A stretch of 64,000 bases of DNA, from the NCBI GenBank assembly GCA_900104855.1, contig FNSS01000001.1:4092001-4156000 (forward strand), read 5' to 3'. A program made the translations under genes and the position numbers. Positions 10,485-26,485 of this stretch are shown piece by piece (the stretch's first letter is position 1; every line of letters begins with the position of its first letter). The stretch comes from Rhizobiales bacterium GAS188 (GTDB taxonomy: Bacteria > Pseudomonadota > Alphaproteobacteria > Rhizobiales > Beijerinckiaceae). The notes under the pieces are model-generated. The model searched no databases. It was not told the DNA's origin and saw only the letters and a program-made list of their open reading frames with translations.

Positions 10485-11462
10485 CTAAACCGAGCTTGGC
10501 CTGACGACGTTGACGCAGGCCTCTCCGCGCGCGCGGCGCATGACATTATCGGCGATCGTCCTCTGGCGGCGACGGATCGTGCCATGCGTCCAGCCGGACA
10601 TATGGGGCGTCATGATCAGGTTCCGCAATTCGTGAAACGGCAGCGCCGACGGGAGAATCTCTGCCTGCTCCAGCCCCGGATAACGGTACCAGGTGTCGAT
10701 GATGGCACCGGCGATGCGTTCGTTGCGCAGGGCGTCGTATAGAGCTTTTTCGTCGATCGTCGGCCCGCGACCGACATTGAGAATAACGGCACTTTGCCGC
10801 ATCGAAGCGAATGCCTCCGCTCCGACGATGCCCTGCGTCTCGGGCGTCAAGGGAACGGAGACGACAATGAAGTCCGCCGTCCCCCAGAACTCGGTCAGAT
10901 CGTCGAGCGTGAAAGAGCGATCGACCAACTGGGAGGTGATCGGGCTGCGGTTGGCGACATGGACATTCATCTCGAATGCCTTGGCACGGGCAGCGATCGC
11001 CTTGCCGATATGCCCGAACCCGAGGAGTCCGATCGTCTTTCCGGCAATCTCCTCATGGGCCCGCTCGGGCGCCCCCGCCCAATAGGCCCAATCGCGGTTG
11101 CGCAAGCGGCGGTCGGCATCGATCAGCGGGACATGGCGGCTAAGAAGCGCCGCCATGACATATTCGGCGATCGCCTGCTCGTGTCCGAAGCAGTTGCAGA
11201 CGACGGCGGACGGCGGAAGGGCGGCGAAGTCCACGGCGTCGTAGCCGGCTCCCGGAACATGAAACAGTCGCAGGCGCTCCGGATGGGGCAGGCTTGCGTC
11301 GTATTTCGTCCCGACGACGACATTCGCCGCCGCATAGGTCTTCCGGTCGGCGGCGCTCGCCAGAACGTCGGAGAGGACGATCACATCCGCCGGAAGATCG
11401 AGGAGATCCGAAAAGCCGCCGCTGAACGAGGCCGCATTCTCTCCGTGGAAGACGATGACCAT
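10485..11462 (-). CDS. D-isomer-specific 2-hydroxyacid dehydrogenase
   Basis: A 325-residue NAD(P)-dependent dehydrogenase. The Rossmann motif GLLGFGHIGK is near residues 144-153, the catalytic Arg is in LNVGRG, and the catalytic His is in MTPHMSGW. The usual acidic residue region reads GAIIDTWYRYP rather than ALDVFEEEP, so this is a divergent subgroup. It lies downstream of the GntR gene on the same strand, separated by 73 bases of tandem repeats, and probably takes part in the sugar-acid pathway encoded across the divergent promoter, for example by reducing a 2-keto acid. The substrate is not determinable. Confidence 0.8.
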   Translation of the reverse strand: MVIVFHGENAASFSGGFSDLLDLPADVIVLSDVLASAADRKTYAAANVVVGTKYDASLPHPERLRLFHVPGAGYDAVDFAALPPSAVVCNCFGHEQAIAEYVMAALLSRHVPLIDADRRLRNRDWAYWAGAPERAHEEIAGKTIGLLGFGHIGKAIAARAKAFEMNVHVANRSPITSQLVDRSFTLDDLTEFWGTADFIVVSVPLTPETQGIVGAEAFASMRQSAVILNVGRGPTIDEKALYDALRNERIAGAIIDTWYRYPGLEQAEILPSALPFHELRNLIMTPHMSGWTHGTIRRRQRTIADNVMRRARGEACVNVVRPSSV

Positions 11463-11478
11463 CGGATATCCTCAGGCT

Positions 11479-11546
11479 GCGGAATCATGGGTTGGGCGGA
11501 ATCGCGGGTTAGGCGGAATCACGGGTTAGGCGGAATCACGGGTTAG
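11479..11546. repeat. Four tandem copies of a 17-base unit overlapping the GntR gene end
   Basis: The unit is GCGGAATCACGGGTTAG. Copies start at 11479, 11496, 11513 and 11530; the last two are identical and the first two carry one to three changes. The copy at 11530-11546 contains the stop codon and last codons (Val-Pro-Asn-Pro) of the GntR gene. The others fill the spacer before the dehydrogenase gene. Confidence 0.9.
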
Positions 11547-12327
11547 GAACGAGCAGCTCGAGGCTGCAATCGAGAAGGGCAGGATCGATCTCGCGCTCCA
11601 TCACGTCGAACATGGTGTCGACGAAATCCATGAGGGCGTCCGACGCGGCCATCGCCCGGTCGATATGGCGATTGGCGACCGCATTGAGCACTGCGAGATG
11701 GCAGTCGATGGTCATGTGCAGGCTGGCGCCGCTCTTCACCTGGCTGTGGTGAATCCAGCCGATCCGACGGAAGATCGTATGCAGGGGCCGCATCGTGTGC
11801 TCGAGGAAGGGTTCGCCGGCGGCGGCCAGAATGTATCTGTCGAGGCGCCGGTCGAACACGTTGAATTCGCCGACTGTCATGCTCGCCCGCTGCTCGCGGA
11901 GCAGACGTTCGAGGTGCAGGAACTGATTGCGGTGGGACGGACCTGACCGCTCGGCAGCCAGGCGGACGACAAATCGCTCGATGTCTCGCCTCAGGCGCAG
12001 CAGCACACGCTCCCTTGCGAGATCGATCGGCGCGATCTGAATGCCGTGCCGCGGACGCACGATCACCAGCGTGTCGGCCGCCAGGCGGCTGACCGCCTGA
12101 TGCACCGGCGTGCGGCTGAAGCCGGTGATCTCCTGCAGGTCCTGGATTGCCAGCAGGCGGCCAGGCTTCAATTCGCAATTGATGATCAGCTCCTCGAGGC
12201 GCTCATAGGCGAGCTCGAAGAGGTTCATGCTGTTGCGACGCGGAGATTTGCTGCTTGCTAGAGACTTGCCACCCGAGGCGTCGCCGACCTTGACGAGTTT
12301 CGGGCGTGTTTGCCCACGCGCGGCCAT
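11536..12327 (-). CDS. GntR-family transcriptional regulator (FCD/FadR subfamily)
   Basis: A 263-residue regulator with an N-terminal winged HTH (about residues 38-100: YERLEELIINCELKPG...FSRTPVHQAVSRL) and an all-helical FCD ligand domain after about residue 105. The His/Asp metal-site residues include those in SGASLHMTIDCHLAVLNA. It begins with an extra, basic N-terminal tail of about 33 residues. AAGGAGG lies just before the ATG at 12325-12327. It is divergent from the enolase-idnO-idnD operon, with a TTGT(N8)ACAA palindrome between them. FCD regulators usually repress sugar-acid genes and release DNA on binding the substrate. Confidence 0.9.
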   Translation of the reverse strand: MAARGQTRPKLVKVGDASGGKSLASSKSPRRNSMNLFELAYERLEELIINCELKPGRLLAIQDLQEITGFSRTPVHQAVSRLAADTLVIVRPRHGIQIAPIDLARERVLLRLRRDIERFVVRLAAERSGPSHRNQFLHLERLLREQRASMTVGEFNVFDRRLDRYILAAAGEPFLEHTMRPLHTIFRRIGWIHHSQVKSGASLHMTIDCHLAVLNAVANRHIDRAMAASDALMDFVDTMFDVMEREIDPALLDCSLELLVPNP

Positions 12328-12388
12328 GCGCTCCTCCTTGAGCTTTTTGCCTAAGCTCTGCGTCCAGTCTGGAATCTTCTAAAACATG

Positions 12389-12404
12389 TTGTGATATTTT
12401 ACAA
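12389..12404. promoter_or_regulatory. Probable GntR operator, enzyme operon
   Basis: TTGTGATATTTTACAA is an inverted repeat of the TTGT(N8)ACAA type bound by FCD-class GntR proteins. It lies 62 bases from the GntR start and 130 bases from the enolase-superfamily start, so it can serve both divergent promoters. The same 16 bases with one mismatch recur at 22930-22945 before the ABC transporter operon. Confidence 0.75.
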
Positions 12405-12533
12405 CTGGGATTATGGTCCCGAAGAAGTGAGAGATCGATGCGGCGGAACTGCGCGCCCGAGCAACCCGTGGCCCATGCCGCCGATGCCCCGATCGAACGC
12501 CGAGGCGAGCCCTCTTCAGCGAGAGACGAAAAG

Positions 12534-13733
12534 ATGAAGATTACATCCATCGAAACTCTGAGAACCGAGGAGTTCGCCAACGTCCTCTGGGTCCGCGTGC
12601 ATACCGATAGCGGGCTGATCGGCCTCGGCGAAACCTTTTACGGCGCAGGAGCGGTCGAGGCGCATATCCACGAGACGCTCGCGGGGCGCCTTCTCGGCCG
12701 CAACCCGTTGCATATCGAGGCCATCCACCGCGACATGGTCAATCTGCCGATGGCGCAATCCTCGACGGGCGCCGAGTACCGCGCAGCTTCGGCGGTCGAC
12801 ATCGCCCTGTGGGACATTTTCGGAAAGGTCTGCAACCAGCCGGTGCACCAGATGCTCGGGGGGCTCTGCCGGGACCGATTGCGCATCTACAACACCTGCG
12901 CGGGCTATCGCTATGTCCGTTCCACCGACATCAAGCCCGTCTCCAACTGGAATGTCGGCGAGGCCGCCGGTCCGTTCGAGGACCTGGACGGCTTCATGAA
13001 CCGTGCGGATGCGGTTGCGGAAAGCCTGCTCGAGAGCGGGATCACCGCGATGAAGATCTGGCCGTTCGATCCCGCCGCCATGCAGAACCAGGGCCTCTTC
13101 ATCTCGGCCGAGCAGATGAGAAACGCCATTCAGCCCTTCGAAAAGATCCGCAAGGCCGTCGGCGACAAGATGGAGATCATGGTGGAGTTCCACTCGCTGT
13201 GGAACCTCCCGACGGCCAAGAAGATCGCCAAGGCGCTCGAGCCCTATGCGCCGACCTGGTTCGAAGATCCGATCCGCATGAACTCGCCTCAGGCGCTCGC
13301 CGAATATGCGCGTTCGACCGATGTCTGGGTCTGCGCCAGCGAGACGCTCGGTTCGCGCTACCCCTACAAGGAGATGCTGGAGCGCGATGCGATGCACGTG
13401 GTCATGGTCGATCTGTGCTGGACGGGCGGGTTGACCGAGGGCCGCAAGATCGCGGCCCTGGCCGAAACCTGGCATCGCCCCTTCGCGCCGCATGATTGCA
13501 TCGGCCCGGTCGGATTCGCCGCGGCGGTGCACGCCTCCTTCAGCCAGCCCAACACGCTGATCCAGGAATCGGTGCGCGCCTTCTACACGGGTTGGTACAA
13601 GGAGCTGGTCACCGTGGTCCCGAGGATCAGTGACGGATACGTCTATCCGATGGAAGGCCCGGGCCTTGGGGTCGAGCTCCTGCCCGCGGTCTTCGACCGA
13701 TCCGATCTCAGCGTTCGCCGCTCGGCGGCTTGA
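12534..13733 (+). CDS. Enolase-superfamily enzyme (mandelate racemase/muconate lactonizing type), probable sugar-acid dehydratase
   Basis: A 399-residue enzyme with an N-terminal capping domain (about 1-125) and a beta/alpha barrel. Candidate catalytic residues are Lys174 (TAMKIWP), metal ligands Glu218 (MVEFHS), Glu244 (WFEDPI) and Glu270 (CASE), and the general acid/base His320 (APHDCIGP). The EFH motif at the first metal ligand resembles acid-sugar dehydratases. It is the first gene of an operon with idnO and idnD, which suggests dehydration of gluconate or a related acid. ATG 12534 (after GAGAGACGAAAAG) is preferred over the 32-codon longer frame from 12438. Confidence 0.8.
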   Translation: MKITSIETLRTEEFANVLWVRVHTDSGLIGLGETFYGAGAVEAHIHETLAGRLLGRNPLHIEAIHRDMVNLPMAQSSTGAEYRAASAVDIALWDIFGKVCNQPVHQMLGGLCRDRLRIYNTCAGYRYVRSTDIKPVSNWNVGEAAGPFEDLDGFMNRADAVAESLLESGITAMKIWPFDPAAMQNQGLFISAEQMRNAIQPFEKIRKAVGDKMEIMVEFHSLWNLPTAKKIAKALEPYAPTWFEDPIRMNSPQALAEYARSTDVWVCASETLGSRYPYKEMLERDAMHVVMVDLCWTGGLTEGRKIAALAETWHRPFAPHDCIGPVGFAAAVHASFSQPNTLIQESVRAFYTGWYKELVTVVPRISDGYVYPMEGPGLGVELLPAVFDRSDLSVRRSAA

Positions 13734-13743
13734 GGCATCCGCA

Positions 13744-14511
13744 ATGTCAGTCGATCTGTTCCGGCTCGAGGGGCGTACCGCCCTGATCACCGGCTCGTCG
13801 CGTGGCCTCGGCCGGGCCATGGCGGAAGGGCTCGCGGCGGCCGGCGCCGCGATCGTGCTCAACGGCACGAACGAAGCGCGATTATCCGCGGCAGCCGCAG
13901 AGATGCGCCGCGCCGGGCATTCGGTTCACGAGGCAAGCTTCGATGTCACGGACGAGGCGGCGATCCTTGCCGCGTTCGAGCGGTTCGATGCGGGCGGCCT
14001 CGAGATCGACATTCTCATCAACAATGCCGGCATCCAGTTGCGAAAGCCGATGGTCGAGCTGACGACCGCGGAGTGGCGAACCGTCATCGAAGCCAACCTC
14101 ACCAGCGCCTTCGTCATCGGTCGCGAGGCCGCGAAGCGCATGATCGCGCGTGGCCGCGGCAAGATCATCAATATCGGCTCGCTGACGAGCGAGCTCGCCC
14201 GCGCGACCGTCGCGCCCTACACTGTGGCCAAGGGCGGCATCAAGATGCTGACGCGGGCCATGGCGGCCGAATGGGCCGCTGACGGGATCCAGGCGAACGC
14301 CATCGGGCCGGGCTACATGCTCACCGACATGAACCAGGCACTCGTCGAGAACCCGACCTTCGATGCCTGGGTCAAGAGCCGGACGCCGGCGAAGCGCTGG
14401 GGTCGGCCCGAGGAACTGATCGGCACGGCCGTGTTCCTGGCCTCCTCCGCCTCGGACTATGTCAACGGCCAGATCATCTATGTCGATGGCGGCATGTTGG
14501 CCGTGCTCTGA
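13744..14511 (+). CDS. idnO: Gluconate 5-dehydrogenase-like short-chain dehydrogenase (IdnO type)
   Basis: A 255-residue classical SDR. It has TGSSRGLG for cofactor binding, NNAG, and the catalytic Ser146, Tyr159 and Lys163. The stretch SLTSELARATVAPYTVAKGG and the C-terminal FLASSASDYVNGQIIYVDGG track E. coli IdnO closely. IdnO reduces 5-keto-D-gluconate to D-gluconate with NADPH in L-idonate catabolism. The gene starts 10 bases after the enolase-type gene and is followed by idnD, so two successive steps of the pathway are encoded together. Substrate specificity is inferred. Confidence 0.8.
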   Translation: MSVDLFRLEGRTALITGSSRGLGRAMAEGLAAAGAAIVLNGTNEARLSAAAAEMRRAGHSVHEASFDVTDEAAILAAFERFDAGGLEIDILINNAGIQLRKPMVELTTAEWRTVIEANLTSAFVIGREAAKRMIARGRGKIINIGSLTSELARATVAPYTVAKGGIKMLTRAMAAEWAADGIQANAIGPGYMLTDMNQALVENPTFDAWVKSRTPAKRWGRPEELIGTAVFLASSASDYVNGQIIYVDGGMLAVL

Positions 14512-14569
14512 GCCGATACGCCTCGACCGGCACGCAAAGACTTCAATTCGGGCGAGCGAGGAAACAATC

Positions 14570-15601
14570 ATGCGCGGCGTCATCATTCATGCTCCAAAGG
14601 ACCTTCGCGTCGAGGAGATCGCGGCCGGGTCGCTTGGGCCCAGCGACGTTCGGGTCCGCATCGAAGCCGGCGGCATCTGCGGCTCCGATCTGCACTATTA
14701 CCACCATGGCGGCTTCGGGACCGTCCGGATAAGGGAGCCGATGGCGCTCGGTCATGAGATTGCCGGCACGATCGATGAGGTCGGCGGCGAGGTTTCGCGG
14801 CTCTCGCCCGGGATGCGGATCGCGGTCAATCCGAGCCGGCCCTGCGATGAATGCCGCTATTGCCGCATGGGACTGCGCAATCAGTGCCTCGACATGCGCT
14901 TCATGGGCAGCGCCATGCGGTTTCCCCATGTCCAGGGGGGATTTCGCGAGAGTGTCATCGTGGATGAAAGCCAGGTCATCCCGATCAGCCCGACCATGAC
15001 GATGGCGGAGGCCGCAATGGCCGAGCCGCTGGCGGTCTGCCTGCATGCGGCTCGCCAGGCCGGCTCGCTCGTTGGAGCGCGCGTGCTCGTGACCGGCTGC
15101 GGTCCGATCGGGTCTCTCGCAGTGCTGGCGGCGCGCTATAGCGGGGCAACGGAGATCGTTGCGACCGACATTGCGGCCTATCCATTGTCGATCGCCAAGC
15201 GACTGGGTGCGTCGCGCACCATCAACATTGCCGAGGAGCCGCAGGCGCTTACCCCCTACGCACAGCACAAGGGATCGTTCGACGTGCTGTTCGAGGCTTC
15301 GGGCAACCAGGCCGCGCTTCGTGGCGCGCTCGATGTCGTCCGTGCGGGCGGGATCATCGTCCAGCTCGGGCTCGGCGGCGAGATGACATTGCCGATCAAC
15401 GTCATCGTGACAAAGGAGATCCAGCTGCGGGGCAGCTTTCGCTTCGACGAGGAGTTCCGCCTCGCCGTCGATCTCATGGGACAGGGCCTGGTCGACGTGA
15501 AGCCTCTGCTCAGCGAGACGCTCCCGTTCGAGCGCGCCGTGGATGCCTTCGAGCTGGCCTCCGATCGTTCGCGCGCCATGAAGGTCCAGCTCGCCTTCTA
15601 A
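14570..15601 (+). CDS. idnD: L-idonate 5-dehydrogenase-like zinc alcohol dehydrogenase
   Basis: 343 residues, the same length as E. coli IdnD. Catalytic zinc ligands are Cys37 (GGICGSD) and His62-Glu63 (LGHE); structural zinc cysteines are 92, 95, 98 and 106. The block NPSRPCDECRYC and the segment FMGSAMRFPHVQGGF are specific marks of the IdnD group. The Rossmann motif is GCGPIG near residue 178. It would oxidise L-idonate to 5-keto-D-gluconate for IdnO. SD GAGCGAGG lies before ATG 14570. This is the last gene of the operon; a gene on the opposite strand follows directly. Confidence 0.82.
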   Translation: MRGVIIHAPKDLRVEEIAAGSLGPSDVRVRIEAGGICGSDLHYYHHGGFGTVRIREPMALGHEIAGTIDEVGGEVSRLSPGMRIAVNPSRPCDECRYCRMGLRNQCLDMRFMGSAMRFPHVQGGFRESVIVDESQVIPISPTMTMAEAAMAEPLAVCLHAARQAGSLVGARVLVTGCGPIGSLAVLAARYSGATEIVATDIAAYPLSIAKRLGASRTINIAEEPQALTPYAQHKGSFDVLFEASGNQAALRGALDVVRAGGIIVQLGLGGEMTLPINVIVTKEIQLRGSFRFDEEFRLAVDLMGQGLVDVKPLLSETLPFERAVDAFELASDRSRAMKVQLAF

Positions 15602-15628
15602 CCGATCAGCGGACGTTGCGCGGGGGCG

Positions 15629-16303
15629 TCAGCACGGTTCGGTGTCCTCGAGTTGCGAGAACCGCACCTGCAGGATCTCCCTCATCGTCACCCTGCCATT
15701 GCCGTCTTTTTCGACGAGGACGAGTTGCTGCGCATCGGGCAGGCCGGCAGGAACCACCATTTTTCCACCAGCTTTCAACTGGTGGATCAGCGGCGCGGGA
15801 ATGAGGTCCGGAGCCGCTGTCGCGATCACCTTGTCGAACGGGGCGTGCTCGGACCAGCCATGATAGCCATTGGCAATCTTGAGCTCGATGTTGGTGCAGC
15901 CCTGCCGATGGAGCCGTTGCTTCGCCTGTCGTCCGAGCTCTTCGATGATTTCGATGCTGTACACCTTCCGAGCCAGCTGCGCGAGGATTGCGGCCTGATA
16001 GCCGAGACCGGTGCCGATCTCGAGGACAGCGTCATCGGCGCTGATATCAAGTAAATCCGTCATCAACGCGACAATAAATGGCTGCGAAATCGTTTTGTCG
16101 AAGCCGATCGGAAGTGGAATGTTGGCGTAGGCGTATAGCCGGAATTCGATTGGCACAAACTCATGTCGCGGAATCTTGCCCATAGCCGTCATCACTCGTT
16201 CGGCAAAGGCCGTCTTGCCGATCAAGTGACTCACGTGAACTGTCTCGGCGGAAATTTCCGCGAGCATATGTTGACGCAGGACCTCGAAATCTTCCGCACT
16301 CAT
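15629..16303 (-). CDS. pcm: Protein-L-isoaspartate O-methyltransferase
   Basis: A 224-residue methyltransferase that repairs isomerised aspartyl residues with S-adenosylmethionine. Motif I VLEIGTGLGYQAA, the preceding PLPIGFDKTISQPFIVALM segment (in place of the usual PLPIGHGQTISQP) and VIATAAPD are all recognisable. Start ATG 16301-16303 gives homology from the first helix; the frame continues upstream without likeness. The SD is weak. The gene lies between the idn enzymes and the importer of the same putative pathway, to which it has no evident link, and a tRNA-end-like scar lies 88 bases upstream. Confidence 0.85.
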   Translation of the reverse strand: MSAEDFEVLRQHMLAEISAETVHVSHLIGKTAFAERVMTAMGKIPRHEFVPIEFRLYAYANIPLPIGFDKTISQPFIVALMTDLLDISADDAVLEIGTGLGYQAAILAQLARKVYSIEIIEELGRQAKQRLHRQGCTNIELKIANGYHGWSEHAPFDKVIATAAPDLIPAPLIHQLKAGGKMVVPAGLPDAQQLVLVEKDGNGRVTMREILQVRFSQLEDTEPC

Positions 16304-16390
16304 TGTGCCATCCCCATGGTCACGACAGGGATACGTAGGGGCACCATACAACGTTGACCGGGTTGTCGGAAGGCAAGAGGATTGCATGGT

Positions 16391-16418
16391 GCAGGTTCGA
16401 AGCCCGCCATTCTGACCA
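16391..16418 (+). other. tRNA 3'-end-like remnant in a 370-base gap
   Basis: GCAGG-TTCGAAG-CCCGC resembles a tRNA T-arm (one A/C mismatch), followed by seven bases, A and an encoded CCA. No 5' acceptor or D arm is present, so it is at most a fragment such as integrative elements leave. The rest of the gap 16304-16673 shows no convincing gene or hairpin. Confidence 0.3.
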
Positions 16419-16673
16419 TCGGCAACATATGTGCACCTGGGGCAGTTCCGGGAAGAGCCCTTTGGCTTATCGACGGCGCACCATGCGAGAGCGTTCGCCG
16501 GGCAAGCCTGACGCGTCGCCGCCTGTCGCCCGCGCCCGATCGGAGCTTTGCGCGGGCCCTGCCGATCACCTGAGAAGATTTCTGACCCCGCACCGATGAT
16601 TTCCGCCCAGCTGCGCTGTCTTGATCAATGGGCGCGCCTGGATGGTCCAGCGGCCCGGACAGCGAGGTGATCC

Positions 16674-17420
16674 GTGGGATCGTTGCAAGGTCAGAATGTC
16701 GTCGTCGTCGGAGGTAGCCGGGGTGTCGGCCGCTCAATCGTAGAAGTCGCCCTGAGCGAGGGGGCGACAGTTCTCGCCGTCGCCCGCGGAGCAGCAGCCC
16801 TGACACAGCTCTCCAATGAGACGCCCGGCGTGAAAACCCTTGCGATCGACGCGACGATCGACTCCGCGCCCGATGCGGTTTTCGACGCCCTGAAGCCCGA
16901 CGTCCTGGTGATCTGCGCAGGCGCCCTTGCCCCCTCCGCGCCCGTACATGAACAGAGCTGGGAGGTCTTCTCCGCAAACTGGGAAATGGACGTCAAGGCG
17001 TCGTTCCTGTTTTGCAAGGCCGCCCTCCGAGGTCCGCTCAAGCCGGGGACCCGGGTTGTTCTGATCTCCAGTGGCGCAGCCTTGAGCGGGGGGCCACCGT
17101 TCTCCGGCGGCTATGCCGGCGCAAAACGCATGCAGATGTTCCTGGCCGGTCATAGCCAGAAGGAATCGGATCGGCTCGGCCTGGACCTGCGCTTCATGGC
17201 GCTTGCGCCCACTCGCATCATGCCAGGGACCGGCGTGGGTGAGGCCGGCATCGACGGCTATGCCACCTATTCGGGCATCCAGCCCGCAGACTTCCTCGCG
17301 GGCATGACCGATATGCAAACGCCGGCCGATGTGGGACGGGCGGTGGTTGCACTCGCCACCGGCCAATTGCAAGGTAGTTCCTTCGTTGTGAGCGGGAGCG
17401 GACTTGCGCCGGCGGCCTGA
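16674..17420 (+). CDS. Short-chain dehydrogenase/reductase
   Basis: A 248-residue SDR. Cofactor-binding VVGGSRGVGRS is at about residues 11-21, NAG is replaced by CAGA (ICAGALAPS), and catalytic Ser (ISSG) and YAGAK are present. The annotated start is GTG; no strong SD. It precedes the sigma factor gene by 42 bases on the same strand, so the two are probably one unit. The substrate is unknown. The replaced NNAG motif places it outside the classical reductases. Confidence 0.75.
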   Translation: MGSLQGQNVVVVGGSRGVGRSIVEVALSEGATVLAVARGAAALTQLSNETPGVKTLAIDATIDSAPDAVFDALKPDVLVICAGALAPSAPVHEQSWEVFSANWEMDVKASFLFCKAALRGPLKPGTRVVLISSGAALSGGPPFSGGYAGAKRMQMFLAGHSQKESDRLGLDLRFMALAPTRIMPGTGVGEAGIDGYATYSGIQPADFLAGMTDMQTPADVGRAVVALATGQLQGSSFVVSGSGLAPAA

Positions 17421-17462
17421 GGCGCGCGGAATGCAAGCCGAATTCAGCACGGCGGGCTCCGT

Positions 17463-18488
17463 ATGACAAACGCTCCTGGCCCTCTTGAGCGATTGGGCCA
17501 GCCGATCCTCGATCGGCTGGCCTTCGAGCGTTTCACGGCGACCCACCGCCGGGAGCTCAAGCTCCACTGTTACCGAATGATGGGCTCGCTGCACGAGGCG
17601 GACGACCTCGTCCAGGACACCCTTCTCCGGGCCTGGCGCGGGAGGTCGGAATTCGACGGACGAGGCTCGGTTCGCAGTTGGCTCTACACGATCGCCACCA
17701 ACAGCTGCCTCAACGCCCTCAGGGCCAGGTCGAGGGCGCATCGCATTTTCCAGCAGCCCGGACGGCGGCCCTCCCATGGGCCGGCCACGGGCGGGCCCGC
17801 AGCCGAGGTCCCCTGGCTGGAGCCTTACCCGGACGCGGAGCTTCCAGGCCTCGTCGACGGCGAGCCTGGTCCGGAAGCGCGGTATGCGACCCGCGAAGCC
17901 GTGCAACTCGCCTTCGTCGCTGCCATCCAGGTTCTGCCGCCCAAGCAGCGGGCCGCGCTGCTGCTTTCCGACGTCCTGGGGTGGTCGGCTGTCGAGACGG
18001 CGCGATTGCTGGGCGGGTCGACCGCTTCGATCAACAGCGCATTGCAGCGGGCCCGCGCAACCCTCGCGGCGCGATATCCTCAGGGACGTCCCATGCGTCG
18101 ATCGCAGCCCAACCCCGAAGAGGGCCTGCTGCTCGAACGTTACATGCAGGCCTGGCAGGCCGCCAATCTCGACGGCCTCATCGAACTCCTGCGGGAGGAC
18201 GCCACCTATCGCATGCCGCCATGGCGGGAATGGTATCAGGGACGCGGGGCGATCCGGGGTTTCTTCGAGAGCATCTGGGCCAATTTTGCGGGCTTCCGCA
18301 CGGTGGCCATCGGGGCCAACGCCCAGCCCGCGGTCGGGCTCTACTCGCGCACCCATCAGGACCCTGCCTGGCGAGCCCATTCCCTACATGTTATCGAGCC
18401 TGCTGACGGCGGAATCGCCTCTCTGACGGTCTATGTGGGGCCGCTCGGCCCCAAATTGTTTCCGGCCTTCGGCCTGCCGCCAGCCTAG
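17463..18488 (+). CDS. ECF-type RNA polymerase sigma factor with C-terminal SnoaL-like domain
   Basis: 341 residues. Region 2 is at about residues 28-95 (HRRELKLHCYRMMGSLHEADDLVQDTLLRAW), region 4 at about 145-200 (LPPKQRAALLLSDVLGWSAVETARLLGGSTASINSAL). An NTF2/SnoaL-like domain of about 120 residues follows (LLERYMQAWQAANLDGLIELL...YRMPPWREWYQG). This architecture belongs to ECF groups that need no anti-sigma gene; the C-terminal domain is thought to regulate the factor. The linker motif WLEPYPD is also typical. It is probably co-transcribed with the upstream SDR. Confidence 0.85.
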   Translation: MTNAPGPLERLGQPILDRLAFERFTATHRRELKLHCYRMMGSLHEADDLVQDTLLRAWRGRSEFDGRGSVRSWLYTIATNSCLNALRARSRAHRIFQQPGRRPSHGPATGGPAAEVPWLEPYPDAELPGLVDGEPGPEARYATREAVQLAFVAAIQVLPPKQRAALLLSDVLGWSAVETARLLGGSTASINSALQRARATLAARYPQGRPMRRSQPNPEEGLLLERYMQAWQAANLDGLIELLREDATYRMPPWREWYQGRGAIRGFFESIWANFAGFRTVAIGANAQPAVGLYSRTHQDPAWRAHSLHVIEPADGGIASLTVYVGPLGPKLFPAFGLPPA

Positions 18489-18537
18489 TCTAGGGCTTTT
18501 CGGATAAACTCTCTCCCGCCTTGATCCAGAGACTCGG

Positions 18538-19704
18538 TCAGGCGGCGAGGCGCTCACCCGTCTGCGCGGAGAAGAACACCGTGTCCGACAAGGTCAGCCC
18601 GATGGCGACCGGCTCCGCCACCTTGAGCTCGCTGTAGCCGGGCGCGGTCGCCATGACGCCGCTTTGCTCCTGCTCCTCTTCCTCATGCGCCGTTGCCGCA
18701 TGCTTCAGCTTCACGGAAACGAGGGATTCAGCGCCGATATGCTCGACCATCGCGACCTCGCCGGCGATTGTGCCGGGGGTGCCGGCCGCAACGATCGCCA
18801 GAGCTTCGGGGCGGAGCCCGACAAGAACCTCCTTCTGGCCCCGCAACGCGGCGGTCGAGATGTGCGCCGGCATGGCAAAACCGGCCTCTCCGATGCGAAG
18901 CTGACCGGCCTCGAGCCGAGCCCTGATCAGGTTCATCGGCGGTGTCCCGATGAATCTCGCCACATAGGTGTTCGCCGGGTTGGTGTAGATGTCGCGCGGC
19001 CTGCCGAACTGCTGCACGACGCCACTGCGCATGAGCGCGATCATGGTGCCCATGGTCATGGCCTCGACCTGGTCATGCGTCACATAGACGAAGGTGCCGC
19101 CCACCTCCCGGTGAAGTTTTGTGATTTCGGCCCGCATCGATGTCCTGAGCTTGGCGTCGAGATTCGAGAGCGGCTCGTCCATCAGGAACACCTCGGGATG
19201 TCGCACCATGGCCCGCCCCAGCGCCACACGCTGGCGCTGGCCGCCCGAAAGGGTGCGGGGATAACGGTCGAGCATCTCGGTCAGAGCCAGGATTTTCGCG
19301 GTGCGCTCGACGACGCCCGCCACCTCCGGCGATCTCTCGATCCGGCGCTTGGCGAGACCACCGATGAGCGGCAGATGGAACCACCAGTGGAACTGCCGCA
19401 TGATCAGGGGAAAGGTGATGTTCCGCCTCACCGTCATATGCGGATAGAGGGCGTAGGACTGGAACACGAAAGCCATGTCGCGCGCACTGGGCGGCAGGTG
19501 CTCGACCCGCCGCCCGTCGAGATGGATCTCCCCCTGCGAAACGCTCTCGAGCCCCGCCAGCATCCGCAGCAGCGTGGACTTGCCGCAGCCCGAAGGGCCG
19601 AGCAGCACGAGGAACTCGCCGTCCGGCACATCGAGGTTGATGTCGCTGACCGCGGGCTTGCCTCCCCAGCTCTTGGTGACGTTTTTGAGAGTGATGGATG
19701 CCAT
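18538..19704 (-). CDS. Carbohydrate ABC transporter ATPase (MalK/UgpC type)
   Basis: 388 residues. Walker A is GPSGCGKST (about 36-44), the signature is LSGGQRQ, Walker B is VFLMDEPLSNLD, and the switch His is in THDQ. A C-terminal TOBE domain (about 285-388) marks the carbohydrate CUT1 class. There is an extra stretch (FHWWFHLPLIGG) of about 20 residues between Walker A and the signature. It is the last gene of a four-gene importer operon with a solute-binding protein and two permeases, presumably taking up the sugar acid or a parent sugar used by the idn enzymes. Confidence 0.9.
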   Translation of the reverse strand: MASITLKNVTKSWGGKPAVSDINLDVPDGEFLVLLGPSGCGKSTLLRMLAGLESVSQGEIHLDGRRVEHLPPSARDMAFVFQSYALYPHMTVRRNITFPLIMRQFHWWFHLPLIGGLAKRRIERSPEVAGVVERTAKILALTEMLDRYPRTLSGGQRQRVALGRAMVRHPEVFLMDEPLSNLDAKLRTSMRAEITKLHREVGGTFVYVTHDQVEAMTMGTMIALMRSGVVQQFGRPRDIYTNPANTYVARFIGTPPMNLIRARLEAGQLRIGEAGFAMPAHISTAALRGQKEVLVGLRPEALAIVAAGTPGTIAGEVAMVEHIGAESLVSVKLKHAATAHEEEEQEQSGVMATAPGYSELKVAEPVAIGLTLSDTVFFSAQTGERLAA

Positions 19705-19736
19705 GGGATACTCTCGGTTGCTTCAGCCCGATTCCG

Positions 19737-20567
19737 TCAGCCCTTGACGCTGCCGGCCGTCAACCCGGCGACGACGTAGCGCTGGACGAAGAGGTAGAAA
19801 ATGACGGCCGGCAGCGTGTAGATGATGCCGACCGCCATCACCGAATGCACCGGCGTGCTCAGCTCGCCGACGAAGCCCGCAAGGCCGACAGAGGCCGTGC
19901 GGAGCTCCTGGCTGCTGACCAGCGTTTGGGCGAAGACATATTCGTTCCAGCCGTGGAAGAAGGCGATGACGCCTGCCGCCGCAAGCGTCGGCGCGATCAG
20001 CGGGATCACCACTGCGAGCACGATGTCGATCTGCGAGCAGCCGTCGATGCGGGCCGCCTCCTCGACGTCGATCGGCACCCCATCGATCGCGCCCTTCAGG
20101 ATCCAGGTGATCACCGGGACCGTGAAGGCGGTGTTGGCAAGGATCAAGCCCATCAAAGTGTTGAGAAGCGATAGCTGTCCGAATATCGCATAGAGCGGCA
20201 CGACGAGCATGGCCTCGGGCAGCATCTGCGTCGCGAACAGGCCAAATCCCAACAGGCCCTTGCCCCTGAAACGGAAGCGCGACAGCGCATAGGCCGGCAG
20301 GGTCCCGAGCGCGATGCTGAGGACCATGGTGCCGGTCGCCACGATTGCGCTGTTCGCGAGCCAGGTCGCAACCGGAATATTCAGGAATGCTTGCCGATAG
20401 GTGGCGAGCTCCGCGAGATTGGGCAGCATGTGCGGCACCGCGGCGAAGAGATCCGCGGAGGCGGTGAGCGAGGTCACCAGCATCCAATAGAGCGGGAAGG
20501 CGGCCGCCACGAGGAGCGCCAGGACCGCGAGCATGCGAAGGCCGTGCTGCCAGGCTCCGGCGCGCAT
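19737..20567 (-). CDS. Carbohydrate ABC transporter permease (MalG type)
   Basis: 276 residues with six predicted helices. The cytoplasmic EAA loop reads EEAARIDGCSQIDIVLAVVIPL, where the ATPase docks. Its ATG (20565-20567) overlaps the stop of the upstream permease gene by one base (TGATG), so the two are translationally coupled. A longer open frame upstream is a shadow of that gene. CUT1-type transporters pair MalF- and MalG-like subunits one to one. Confidence 0.88.
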   Translation of the reverse strand: MRAGAWQHGLRMLAVLALLVAAAFPLYWMLVTSLTASADLFAAVPHMLPNLAELATYRQAFLNIPVATWLANSAIVATGTMVLSIALGTLPAYALSRFRFRGKGLLGFGLFATQMLPEAMLVVPLYAIFGQLSLLNTLMGLILANTAFTVPVITWILKGAIDGVPIDVEEAARIDGCSQIDIVLAVVIPLIAPTLAAAGVIAFFHGWNEYVFAQTLVSSQELRTASVGLAGFVGELSTPVHSVMAVGIIYTLPAVIFYLFVQRYVVAGLTAGSVKG

Positions 20568-21484
20568 CACCGTTGCCCCCTGGCTTGCTCGGCTCGGGCG
20601 TTGGCCCGGAAGTAGATCAAGGTCACGACGAGGGCGACGGTGAGCCCGATCATCCCGACGGCTGCGGCAAGGCCGAGCTCGCGATAGACGAAGCCCTGGC
20701 GATAGAGCTCGATGACCAGCGTGTTCGTCGCGCCGATCGGGCCGCCCTGTGTCATCAGCCAGATCAGGTCGAAGCGCCGCAGCGACCAGATCGTGATGAA
20801 GAGCGCGAGCAGCGCGACGCTCGGCTGGATGGTGGGCCAGACCACGGCCTTGAACACGCTCAGCCGGTCGGCTCCGTCGATGACCGCCGCCTCGCGCAGT
20901 TCCGCCGACACGCCCTGGAGGGCTGCGAGGAGCACGACGGATGCGAAGGGGAAGATCTGCCAGATGGTGGTGAACAGGACGGCCGGCAGCGCGAGACTTG
21001 GATTGTCGAGCCAATTCTCATTGGCGGAGGCCAATCCGAGAATGCGAAACGCGTGATTGAAGATGCCGTATTGGGCGTTGAACATCCAGGTGAAGATCAG
21101 CGCCACGGCGACCGGCGGAGCCGCCCAGGGTACCGTGACCAGCGCCCGCGCCACGGCTCTCCCGCGGAATGGGCGATCCAGCAGGAGCGCCGCCGCAAGT
21201 CCCAATCCGATCGCCAGGAGCACGCATGCGACCGTGTAGAGCGCCGTGACGAGGATCGTGCCGTGGAATTCGCTGGTTCCGACGAGGTCGTTATAATTGT
21301 CCAGCCCGACATAGACATGGTCGCGTGGTGACAGCAGCGAGGTCGAGGTGAAGCTGAGCATCAGCTCCTGAACGAGCGGATAGCCCTGGAACAGGAGCAG
21401 ATAGACGACGACCGGCGCGACGAAGAGGTAAGGCGTCGAGCGTCTGCCTTCGAGCCGGGCCGCTGGCGGGACGGGCTTCGTCAT
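20567..21484 (-). CDS. Carbohydrate ABC transporter permease (MalF type)
   Basis: 305 residues with six predicted helices. It has an N-terminal PYLFVAPVVVYLLLFQGYPL helix and an EAA loop REAAVIDGADRLSVFKAVVWP near residue 205. It is the partner of the MalG-type subunit encoded immediately downstream. It lies 42 bases after the solute-binding protein gene in the same operon. Confidence 0.88.
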   Translation of the reverse strand: MTKPVPPAARLEGRRSTPYLFVAPVVVYLLLFQGYPLVQELMLSFTSTSLLSPRDHVYVGLDNYNDLVGTSEFHGTILVTALYTVACVLLAIGLGLAAALLLDRPFRGRAVARALVTVPWAAPPVAVALIFTWMFNAQYGIFNHAFRILGLASANENWLDNPSLALPAVLFTTIWQIFPFASVVLLAALQGVSAELREAAVIDGADRLSVFKAVVWPTIQPSVALLALFITIWSLRRFDLIWLMTQGGPIGATNTLVIELYRQGFVYRELGLAAAVGMIGLTVALVVTLIYFRANARAEQARGQR

Positions 21485-21526
21485 GGAAGATGAGCCTTAT
21501 ATTGGCCGACCATGCACAGCTCCGGA

Positions 21527-22774
21527 TTACTTCCGGAGCACCCTCGTCTCAACCATCTTCTGCGCGTCGTCCATCGCCTTCTTGGGATCGGCGCCGCCCT
21601 GCAGCACCTTCAGGACCTGCTCGAGAACGATCTGCTGGATTTCCGGCGTCTTGATTTCGAGGCCCGCCGCAAGCTGAGGGACGCTATTCGGCGTCTGATC
21701 GTCATAGACCTTCAGCCAGGGTTGCTTGGCCAGGATCTCGGGCGACCGCTCGACCACGGTGGCGACATTGCTCGCGCCGAGAAGATCCTGGAGATCCTTT
21801 TGATTCTCGGGCTGCAGCGCCCATTTGACGAAGCTGACCGCTGCATCCTTGTGCTTGGTATTGGCATTGATCGTCAGCGGCGCCAGGATCAGGCCCTGCG
21901 CGCGCGTGGGAAACGGGGAGGGGGCGGCAGCTAAAGGCAGGTCCGGTGTCTGCTGGTAGAAAATGCCCGCAACGCCACCATTATCGACCTCCATCGCCAG
22001 CTTGCTTTCCCAGAACATGCGCCGGTAGGTTGACGCATCGGTGCCCTTGGGGGTCGCGCCGAGATCGTACATCTTCTTGTAGGCAATGACGCCTTCAACC
22101 ACCTTGGGGTCGTTGATGGTCGGTTTGCCGGTGTCGTCGCTCCAGCGGCCGCCGAAGCCGTAGACGAAGTTGCACAGATCCTGCCAGAAGCCCGGGCGCT
22201 CTGCCATCGTGGCCCGATAGGCGAAACCATAGACCCCGTTGCTGGTCGCAGCCTTCGCGAATTGCAGGAATTCGTCGAAGGTGGACGGAGCCTTGCCGTC
22301 CTTGAGGAGCGTCTTGTTGTACAAGAGCACGTAGTTGCTGATTTCGAAGGAAATCCCGTAACGTTTCCCAGCGACCTTCAAATACCGGTCGGGAGCCGTG
22401 AATTTGTAGTCGCTATCCTTGATGACATCATCGAGCGGAAGAATGCGATTGGCCGCGACCGCCGCGTAGAAGTCGATCTGATCGAAGCGGACGAGGTCCG
22501 GCCCGCCGCCGCCGCCCATCTGGGTGAAGACCGTATTCGCCATGGTCGCGAAGGGGAGCGCCACGGGCTGGATCTCGATCTTGTCCTGGCTCTTGTTGAA
22601 TTTCTCCACCCAGGCCTTGAGCCTGTCGCCACGCCCCGCCTCCGAGAAGGTCACGCCCACGAAGGTCAGGACCTCTTTCGACTGGGCGAATGCTGTGCTG
22701 AGCCCACCTCCTGTGATCAGCGTCGACGCGACGACGGCCGAAAATGTCAGCATGCGGCTGAAGCGTTGGCTCAT
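21527..22774 (-). CDS. Extracellular solute-binding protein, family 1 (sugar)
   Basis: 415 residues. A Sec signal peptide covers about residues 1-31, with cleavage after AFA (STAFAQSKE). The mature part has the two-lobed family 1 pattern, including VRFDQIDFYAAVAANRILPLDD and YGISFEISNYVLLYNKTLL, which are typical of CUT1 binding proteins. It is the first gene of the importer operon. A copy of the probable GntR operator lies 156 bases upstream of the start, which ties the importer to the idn enzyme operon. The ligand is not deducible beyond sugar or sugar acid. Confidence 0.88.
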   Translation of the reverse strand: MSQRFSRMLTFSAVVASTLITGGGLSTAFAQSKEVLTFVGVTFSEAGRGDRLKAWVEKFNKSQDKIEIQPVALPFATMANTVFTQMGGGGGPDLVRFDQIDFYAAVAANRILPLDDVIKDSDYKFTAPDRYLKVAGKRYGISFEISNYVLLYNKTLLKDGKAPSTFDEFLQFAKAATSNGVYGFAYRATMAERPGFWQDLCNFVYGFGGRWSDDTGKPTINDPKVVEGVIAYKKMYDLGATPKGTDASTYRRMFWESKLAMEVDNGGVAGIFYQQTPDLPLAAAPSPFPTRAQGLILAPLTINANTKHKDAAVSFVKWALQPENQKDLQDLLGASNVATVVERSPEILAKQPWLKVYDDQTPNSVPQLAAGLEIKTPEIQQIVLEQVLKVLQGGADPKKAMDDAQKMVETRVLRK

Positions 22775-22929
22775 TCCATCCTCCCTGACGGTCTATTCTT
22801 GTCGTTGACTTGGTCGAAAATCGACTTGGCAGAAGGCGGCCCGAACCAGGACGCGCCTGCAGCACGGCTCACCGGCGACCATCTCTCCCGCGAGACAAAC
22901 CGGAACCAGCATCCATTCGTCATAGAATA

Positions 22930-22945
22930 TTGTGATATTTTACAG
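22930..22945. promoter_or_regulatory. Probable GntR operator, ABC importer operon
   Basis: TTGTGATATTTTACAG is identical to the site at 12389-12404 in 15 of 16 positions. It lies upstream of the solute-binding protein gene in a comparatively AT-rich patch. Two such matches in front of functionally related operons are hard to explain by chance. Confidence 0.75.
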
Positions 22946-25101: not shown

Positions 25102-26485
25102 GTTAAGAGCATTCCAAAGTTGTCGGCCTGTTTCTTTCTCTTTCTTGGGGGTTCGTAGAGTGCGTTTGGGAGGCCGTGTCTGCGGATATTGCGAATCTGC
25201 GCGGCGAGGTCACCCAGTAGATGGGCGACGATGACTATGCGGCACAGGACGAGGAGCCGGATTTTGCAAGGGCTTCGATAGGCGGCGGCGGTGGTTTGAG
25301 GGGGGAATGGCGCGCTCGAGGGCGCTTGCGAGGAGATTGGCGAGGAGGGCGGCGGCGAGATTGGCCAGGATCCAGGTTCGCGCGAGCGCAGGATCTTTGG
25401 CGGGGACGGCTCGCATCGCGAAGATGGATTTGAGGGCCTTGAAGGCCAGCTCAATCTGCCATCGCAGCCGGTAGAGAGGGATGAGCCGTTCGATCGGCCA
25501 ATCCTTGGCCGGCAGGTTCGTGGCGAACATGATCAGGCCGGCCATCGCCTTGGTGTCCTCGCGGGGCGTCACCCCGTGCTTGGAGCGCGAGCGTTCGATG
25601 CGGGCGCGCTCGCGGGCGGCGACCGCTTCGCTGGCGCGCACAATGACGATGCGGGTCTTCAGCGGCTCGGGCAAAGGCCGGGGGTTTGCCCGGTCCTTTT
25701 TGGGCTTGGCCTCTTGCAATGTGACTGCGATCTCGACGGCTTCGGCCGCGCCGAGGGCGGTGATGACATCCTGCGCGGTCAGGCGTTCGCCAGTCTTGTC
25801 ATAAATCATCTTCATCGCGCTGATCCCGGCGCGGACGAGGAAAAACGCCATGTTGTCCGCCAGTTCCCGCAAGGCTTTGGTTTTGGCGTAATTGCGGTCG
25901 GCGACAGCAATGGTCCCCGGCTCGATCCGAGCCAGGCTCAGCGTTTCGCCGACCTTCACGTCGGTCAGATTCAGGAGATCAAATCTTCCGGTCCCGGGAT
26001 CGTAGCTGGCGTGCAGCCGATGCTGCCCACCGCGTTTGCCAGGGCCGGCGAACATGCTGCCATCGACAAGACGGATCGGCGGGCCTCGCCAAAGCGCCGA
26101 AGGCTCGGCCCATTCGGTGGACAGGCTCAGAAGCCGACCTACCACCGAAGACAGCAGATCGCCGCAGTCGCGCAGTCGCTGCAGCACGGCCACGTCGCTC
26201 AGCGGGATGCCCAACGCCGAATGGCTCCACGCCGCCGTCGAGCGCAGAGACTGTCCGGTTGCCGCATAGCCAAGCGCTAGGCGAAGCAGTTGCGATCCAT
26301 TGCAGATACGACGACGACGAACCAGCGCGCCAGTCTCGCGCGCCAGCGCGTCCAGCTTACTCGCGCCGCCCAGAAGACCCTCGACCGCGGGCCAGTCACC
26401 TTCAAATGAGAACACCGAATCATCTTGCATCCGCAGCTTGAATCACAAGCCGCCAGCGGTGTGAATCCCAAAGTTAGCGCATATG
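25090..26485 (-). mobile_element. IS4-family insertion sequence
   Basis: About 1396 bases between 12-base perfect ends (CATATGCGCTAA / TTAGCGCATATG). It carries one DDE transposase reading frame on the minus strand, whose stop codon in the shifted frame lies inside the left end, as is common in compact IS elements. It lies in a copy of the GGGACCGC repeat. No target duplication can be told apart because the flanks are themselves palindromic. Confidence 0.8.
25098..26430 (-). pseudogene. IS4-family DDE transposase, frameshifted near the C-terminus
   Basis: The frame from 26430 gives 406 residues with DDE-type elements: IRLVDGSMF (first Asp), IAVADRNYAK (second Asp), and YRLRWQIELAFKALK, the Y(2)R(3)E(6)K signature of IS4 with the catalytic Glu. 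After ALERAIPP the frame drifts into SNHRRR. The next frame continues QTTAAAYRSP... and ends with YEPPRKRKKQ, the expected IS4 C-terminus, at 25098. One extra base in the C6 run at 25300-25305 (minus-strand Cs) would explain it. Either the gene is broken or the run is a programmed slip or a read error. Confidence 0.75.

Follow-up and report, generated by a model that had tools for sequence, protein, structure and literature searches.

The stretch of the Rhizobiales bacterium GAS188 genome analyzed here (64,000 nucleotides; the window) holds a gene for an FCD-type GntR regulator, called gntR in the following, an adjacent, divergently oriented operon encoding putative sugar-acid breakdown enzymes, and a separate operon encoding an ABC importer. 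Judging from sequence comparisons, a switch protein probably controls the sugar importer and the sugar-acid breakdown enzymes via one common DNA site, a 16-base palindrome whose spacing as a predicted operator is unlike those published for the protein family. We assign a probability of roughly 0.8 to the reading that one autoregulated, substrate-responsive FCD-GntR repressor controls import and breakdown jointly.

Within the window, TTGTGATATTTTACAA matches exactly at 12389–12404 (+), and TTGTGATATTTTACAG at 22930–22945 (+) represents the same sequence with one mismatch; both copies were thus found as claimed in a preliminary description of this stretch. With up to 3 mismatches to TTGTGATATTTTACAA allowed, the 64 kb contain nothing beyond these two sites, termed operators 1 and 2, although only 0.03 matches would be expected per window at this tolerance and two matches were obtained in 0 of 100 shuffles. 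The genome-wide scan for the 16-mer that the preliminary description had suggested (9,090,457 bases, up to 2 mismatches) returned both operators and a single extra place, C1:2405899, so that the sequence is not present in many copies. The core TGTRAWATWTYAC occurs at three places in the 9.09-Mb genome, namely in the two operators and at one intragenic position (C1:2243513, codon 254 of a 293-aa HlyIII-family gene). A chance origin of the operator pair was rejected on the basis of the expected value of 0.03 and this rarity throughout the genome. The two sites are embedded in AT-richer patches, as had also been described, with a local GC content of 0.41 and 0.33, respectively, versus 0.66 for the window. 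Operator 1 lies between the gntR start at 12327 (minus strand) and the start of the dehydratase gene at 12534 (plus strand), and operator 2 is located 155 bp upstream of the importer binding-protein gene (start at 22774, minus strand).

12389–12404, no strand assigned: operator 1 (predicted), TTGTGATATTTTACAA, between gntR and the enzyme operon
22930–22945, no strand assigned: operator 2 (predicted), TTGTGATATTTTACAG, upstream of the importer operon
11536–12327, minus strand: FCD-type GntR regulator (PF00392 and PF07729 matches, structural model, atypical helix-turn-helix (HTH) and metal site)

Two further places in the GAS188 genome deserve mention. The extra copy at C1:2405899–2405914 (L093:3900), TGGTGATATTTTGCAA with 2 mismatches, is situated 145 bp ahead of what is probably the start of a gene for a major facilitator superfamily (MFS) transporter. 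Its interpretation as a coding match inside a long open reading frame was rejected and the site is considered to lie upstream, because the MFS gene probably begins behind it at L093:4061, preceded by the ribosome-binding-site-like AAGGGAAGGA. The conserved AC of the core is broken in this copy, which may be a third regulon member or a product of chance. The other place, TTGTGAAATCCCACAA at C1:290078–290093 (L092:4079), has one mismatch to the degenerate motif, is intergenic according to open reading frame calls and neighbors a PucR-type regulator gene.

Co-occurrence of site, regulator and importer

Homologues of gntR were searched for in 298 genomes of the family and detected in 29, including that of GAS188; since these genomes are related, the counts of sites and loci given below do not represent independent events. 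The core GTRANATNTYAC is present at 39 of 43 gntR loci (GAS188 included) versus 0 of 60 other FCD-GntR loci, the latter being the best-scoring 30 of 36 from GAS188 and 30 of 147 from two relatives rather than a random draw. Resolved by identity, the core accompanies all 39 gntR loci with at least 47%, and the four loci without it, at which no site was seen, are those with 35–37%. TTGTNANNNNTNACAA adjoins gntR with zero mismatches at every one of the 23 loci, from 22 genomes, whose identity reaches 57% or more, and the three loci at 47–53% have kept the core with altered ends. A genome-wide scan for TTGTRANATNTYACAA gave a perfect match beside gntR in 22/22 genomes with orthologues of at least 57% identity, again including GAS188; in the 24 other genomes scanned, three of which carry gntR homologues of 47–53% and four such of 35–37%, there were zero perfect matches, and a one-mismatch match was found somewhere in 7. 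In relatives comprising Azospirillum, three Polaromonas and a metagenome-assembled genome, the site deviates by 1, 1, 1, 1 and 2 mismatches. An out-of-sample test on loci from 398 genomes sampled across the phylum gave the core in 8/8 and the perfect motif in 6/8 cases. When the 23 loci were aligned on the motif, the 16-mer yielded 1.85 bits per position versus 0.55 and 0.42 in the 40-base flanks; conservation is also high over about eight bases toward gntR, as expected of a promoter element.

Dehydratase genes behave differently from gntR in this respect. Of 34 loci found, 30 were examined, and the site was present at 19 and absent at 11. Of the genomes concerned, three (G019, G109, G115) harbor gntR elsewhere in the same cluster and one (G295) on another contig; the other seven loci are enolase-gene orthologues in genomes without gntR (threshold E 1e-30), so that 0 of 7 such orthologues examined had the site. 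On the level of sequence comparison, the site tracks gntR and not the metabolic genes, which supports the earlier proposal that the palindrome is tied to the adjacent FCD-GntR gene. L202 (G131) and L203 (G239) have preserved the dehydratase–SDR–dehydrogenase unit (SDR, short-chain dehydrogenase/reductase) and lack both gntR and operator, so one would expect another regulator to have taken over there. A degenerate second operator copy with 3 mismatches, 21 bp from the main one, was noticed at gntR in two loci of family f2 (L209:2298–2334 and L210:1368–1404), where it may relate to cooperative binding.

As to the importer, an orthologue of its binding protein is encoded in 11 of the 298 genomes, 7 of which have the core near the importer. 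In G162, G265 and G270, the importer resides on a different contig than gntR, and yet a site with 0–1 mismatch lies upstream of it. G147 carries a second gntR copy and site directly before the importer, G019 and G109 unite gntR, importer, dehydratase, SDR and dehydrogenase in one cluster, and in Polaromonas jejuensis gntR faces an importer–dehydrogenase operon with the site in between; in these four genomes, the site or its core is positioned between gntR and the orthologous importer, or upstream. The linkage of importer and enzymes advanced in the preliminary description holds with regard to a common regulon predicted by comparative genomics.

Promoter architecture, proposed circuit and alternatives

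The genes that would be served by the two operators are the following, in addition to gntR itself.

10485–11462, minus strand: 2-hydroxyacid dehydrogenase, co-directional with gntR and downstream of it
12534–13733, plus strand: enolase-superfamily (mandelate racemase/muconate lactonizing enzyme) dehydratase, probably for a sugar acid, by domain and family matches
13744–14511, plus strand: SDR similar to gluconate 5-dehydrogenase (IdnO), NCBIfam match below cut-off
14570–15601, plus strand: Zn-dependent medium-chain dehydrogenase/reductase (MDR) similar to L-idonate 5-dehydrogenase (IdnD), NCBIfam match below cut-off
21527–22774, minus strand: ABC importer, family-1 substrate-binding protein (SBP_bac_1)
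20567–21484, minus strand: ABC importer permease (UgpA-like)
19737–20567, minus strand: ABC importer, second permease (BPD_transp_1)
18538–19704, minus strand: ABC importer ATPase (UgpC/MalK-like)

For the enolase-family gene, the most likely start is 12534 (MKITSIETL) and not 12438, because orthologues align there from residue 1. The same-strand arrangement of gntR and dehydrogenase recurs in 18 of the 25 gntR regions L055–L079, and the importer operon extends on the minus strand from 22774 down to 18538.

The left half of operator 1 coincides with a −35-like TTGTGA, 17 nt before TATGGT. A TANNNT located 17 nt after TTGTRA, i.e., after a palindrome half, on the side facing away from gntR is found at 16 of 31 loci. 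The importer promoter on the minus strand reads TTGACA-17-TATTCT (10/12 matches); its 17-nt spacer is taken up entirely by operator 2 and one additional base. The operators, one at a −35-like element and the other in a −35/−10 spacer, occupy repressor positions. In the circuit that we propose, a dimer of the gntR product (11536–12327) would bind GTRAWATWTYAC, a palindrome with TT/AA ends. At 12389–12404, two divergent promoters would have their −35-like elements covered by the dimer; one of these promoters would serve the dehydratase–SDR–MDR operon, the other gntR together with the 2-hydroxyacid dehydrogenase gene. At 22930–22945, the dimer would occupy the −35/−10 spacer of the importer promoter. 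When substrate is absent, RNA polymerase would be blocked at all three promoters; accommodation of a sugar acid or pathway intermediate in the FCD domain would then release the repressor and turn on import and breakdown together. From sites that are rare, conserved and co-occurring with gntR, and from the promoter-like boxes next to them, we infer binding, repression as its sign, an inducer and a substrate.

Several observations weigh against this circuit. A consensus promoter scan of 12250–12560 gave nothing above threshold, and the assignment of −35 and −10 boxes in this region is our own. Operator 2 is an imperfect copy with one mismatch, no site was detected at the importers of G015, G087 and G112 (all g16) and of G059 (a 47% orthologue), such that some lineages would have lost, or never acquired, membership in the regulon, and in G295 the enolase gene is away from gntR, on another contig, and has no site. 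Moreover, GAS188 encodes 36 FCD regulators (75 and 72 in two relatives), another of which could bind as well, and a different GntR-HTH protein has its own TTGTGA-N4-TCACAA sites. The latter defines a second GntR-HTH group with the same half-site, which is therefore not exclusive to the gntR regulator. Sites of the TTGTGANNNNTCACAA type precede this other GntR-HTH gene in L081 (G147), L086 (G188, one mismatch) and the g16 loci L087, L089 and L090; the g16 genomes concerned are G055, G087 and G112 (with mismatches in G112). In several genomes, the second-group sites occur as two copies 21 bp apart. The HTH region of the G147 protein matches that of the window regulator with 29% over 134 aa, and the protein (L081) has no Pfam FCD match; in G015 (L088), the sites are present and the open reading frame behind them gave no Pfam match. 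Genes for peptide-type transporters were observed near second-group sites in L081 and L088.

Control of the two operons might be separate, with operator 1 belonging to GntR, the importer site being a chance or decayed look-alike, and the importer itself being under another regulator. Such an arrangement would accommodate the mismatch in operator 2 and the site-less importer orthologues of G059 and three g16 genomes. It is, however, unlikely in view of the expectation of 0.03 matches in a window when up to 3 mismatches are allowed, the mere three occurrences of the core in 9.09 Mb, one of them intragenic, and the upstream sites with 0–1 mismatch at remote importers in three other genomes. Still less probable is that the palindrome belongs to a Rex-type redox repressor (TTGTGAA-W4-TTCACAA) or to a CRP/FNR-type activator. 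The half-site of CRP is TGTGA. The TTGTGA half-site is common to the Rex box as described in PMC2883068. Here, though, four bases separate TTGTRA from TYACAA, resulting in a 16-bp element versus 18 bp for the Rex box; the N-terminal Rex domain PF06971 exceeded the cut-off in 0 of 5 genomes (the only match in GAS188 reached 24 versus 27 bits), and the site tracks gntR rather than the metabolic genes. A Rex or CRP/FNR site was rejected on these three grounds.

A question of another kind is the sign of regulation. GntR could act as an activator, as is reported for the FCD protein CitO (PMC4746285); it would then sit on the −35 region and bring in polymerase as soon as substrate is bound. At the divergent promoters, the −35 and −10 boxes are imperfect, which would be in line with this idea, whereas the location of operator 2 between −35 and −10 is a repressor position and the VanR-group members AlkR and Atu1419 are described as repressors (PMC12042122, PMC7797058). 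We consider activation improbable and favor repression by the gntR product.

The regulator protein and its operator spacing

The gntR product matches PF00392 with 48.8 bits (cut-off 27) and PF07729 with 62.6 bits (cut-off 24.3). Its AlphaFold2 model (mean predicted local distance difference test score 85.1) suggests six long helices, from 103–127 to 222–246, followed by two short C-terminal ones, without the extra helix of FadR. The top structural matches of the model include the VanR members AlkR (9ISW), Atu1419 (6ZA3), McbR (4P9F) and TM0439 (3FMS), with which the regulator appears to share a winged HTH combined with a six-helix FCD domain. As described for AlkR and Atu1419 (PMC12042122, PMC7797058), the predicted operator is palindromic and located at a promoter. 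The gntR product differs from these VanR-group regulators in a GT/AC distance of 8 nt versus 2–3 nt in the predicted operator, in the replacement of Glu34, Arg49 and Glu50, and in that of two of four metal ligands.

Operators of the FadR subfamily are described as having 2–3 nt between GT and AC (consensus TKGT-N2-3-ACMA), with a half-site spacing reported to vary but little (PMC4494728); there are 3 nt in the AlkR operator ATTGTCAGACAAT (PMC12042122) and 2 nt in that of Atu1419, ATGTATACAT (PMC7797058). For CsiR, no operator sequence suitable for comparison was encountered. With its GT-N8-AC arrangement, the palindrome falls outside the TKGT-N2-3-ACMA class, and an exact TKGT-N2-3-ACMA is absent within 150 bp of the palindrome in 41/41 places. 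TKGT-Nx-ACMA is found in weak excess at FCD genes, which says little because the excess is spread over many spacings. The preliminary description had held that a TTGT(N8)ACAA palindrome suits FCD proteins; this does not agree with the 2–3 nt given in the three sources just cited, nor with 0/60 other FCD loci having such a site. The conserved guanines of the half-sites are separated by 11 bp, or roughly one turn of the helix, versus 5–6 bp; should the regulator recognize the half-sites at this distance, its two DNA-binding domains would come to lie in successive major grooves.

Residues at DNA-contact positions, numbered according to E. coli FadR (Glu34, Arg35, Arg45, Arg49, Glu50; Table 1 of PMC4494728), were counted on 31 orthologue rows, leaving out L081, a different GntR protein. 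Arg45 is retained in 31/31. Arg49 is replaced with His and Glu50 with Gln, His or Asn in every row (His and Gln in the window regulator), and neither Glu34 (replaced in 31/31) nor Arg35 is present in the group. The 60 control FCD loci have Arg49 in 58, Glu50 in 49, Arg45 in 44, Glu34 in 42 and Arg35 in 15 cases; the telling losses are thus Arg49 and Glu50, and less so Glu34, because the controls mostly keep these residues and rarely Arg35. His in place of Arg49 was also found in 8/8 later orthologues from the phylum sample, and Arg49 together with Glu or Asp50 is retained in each of the five closest solved sequences, which represent four proteins. A metal site of the Asp/Asn-His-His-His type is a property of the metal-binding FCD subset, as in Atu1419 with Asn137, His141, His192 and His214 (PMC7797058). 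At the corresponding positions, the gntR group has Asp159, Asp163, His210 and Leu232, each in 31/31, such that two of four ligands are replaced; in the 60 controls, Asp/Asn159 is present in 52, His163 in 58, His210 in 58 and His232 in 52.

The window regulator missed the cut-offs of the NCBIfam models it matched by a wide margin, and the 19 group members scanned matched this same small set of models. In a literature search limited to open-access papers, no described regulator of such kind was recognised. The gntR group apparently forms a hitherto undescribed FCD subgroup whose predicted operator has a wide spacing. We see about even chances that this subgroup reads DNA differently, via His and Gln/His and an 11-bp guanine spacing, and that its effector pocket has been reshaped to Asp-Asp-His-Leu for a polyhydroxy acid; the reshaped pocket would perhaps show altered or no metal binding. 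With its changes in operator spacing, recognition helix and metal site, the subgroup provides a natural test of the determinants of spacing in GntR proteins. FCD regulators as a whole are abundant here, with counts of 36, 75 and 72 in three of the genomes.

Pathway, substrate and neighboring genes

The MDR scored 375 bits against the IdnD model (equivalog cut-off 469), the SDR 297 bits against the IdnO model (408), and the NCBIfam match of the dehydratase to galactonate dehydratase is below cut-off. The nearest solved dehydratases, 2POD and 4DX3, are labelled only as mandelate racemase/muconate lactonizing enzymes. Searches of NCBIfam, Pfam and the PDB returned no functional assignment for the pathway substrate, and a literature search for 4DX3 with ‘enolase superfamily’ retrieved no paper (2POD was not searched for). 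We use the label ‘sugar acid’ because of the enzyme families and because of a kinase and an aldolase in one relative: in G113, genes for a PfkB kinase and a KDPG-type aldolase (KDPG, 2-keto-3-deoxy-6-phosphogluconate) continue the same gene run. A kinase or aldolase gene was not found in the operon of the window.

The enzyme set fits a route from L-idonate via D-gluconate to 2-keto-3-deoxygluconate (KDG), or one from L-gluconate via D-idonate to 2-keto-3-deoxygalactonate (KDGal), the latter being described for Paracoccus 43P (PMC12632266). The lgn system of that strain (LgnH, LgnI, LgnE, LgnF, LgnG), compared by description only, likewise comprises two C5 oxidoreductases and a dehydratase; its regulator is the IclR-type LgnR, in contrast to the FCD-GntR protein here (PMC12632266). 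The PfkB kinase and KDPG-type aldolase in G113 are a further parallel. With E. coli idn, the window locus has an IdnD-like MDR and an IdnO-like SDR in common, to which it adds the dehydratase. The E. coli idn system employs the transporter IdnT and the regulator IdnR, which are replaced here by an ABC importer and an FCD regulator. Placing the importer in one predicted pathway with the dehydratase, a relative of 2POD and 4DX3, helps to narrow down the function of each.

Other transporter genes were encountered near gntR in relatives. In L065 (2938–5914), a polar-amino-acid-type ABC transporter is encoded behind the gntR–dehydrogenase pair (SBP_bac_3 and permease were tested in L065 only), and similar ATPase matches occur in the 18 of 25 regions (L055–L079) that have the dehydrogenase beside gntR. 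A transporter of this type would be odd for a sugar acid and is possibly a clue to the substrate. Some relatives (L077, L095) have genes for tripartite ATP-independent periplasmic (TRAP) transporters beside the cluster.

Between the two operons of the window lie a PCMT gene, a gene for another SDR and, at 17463–18488, one for a SigJ-like sigma factor of the Sigma-70 family with a SnoaL-like domain. A DDE transposase gene is located at 25210–26430, about 2.3 kb past operator 2.

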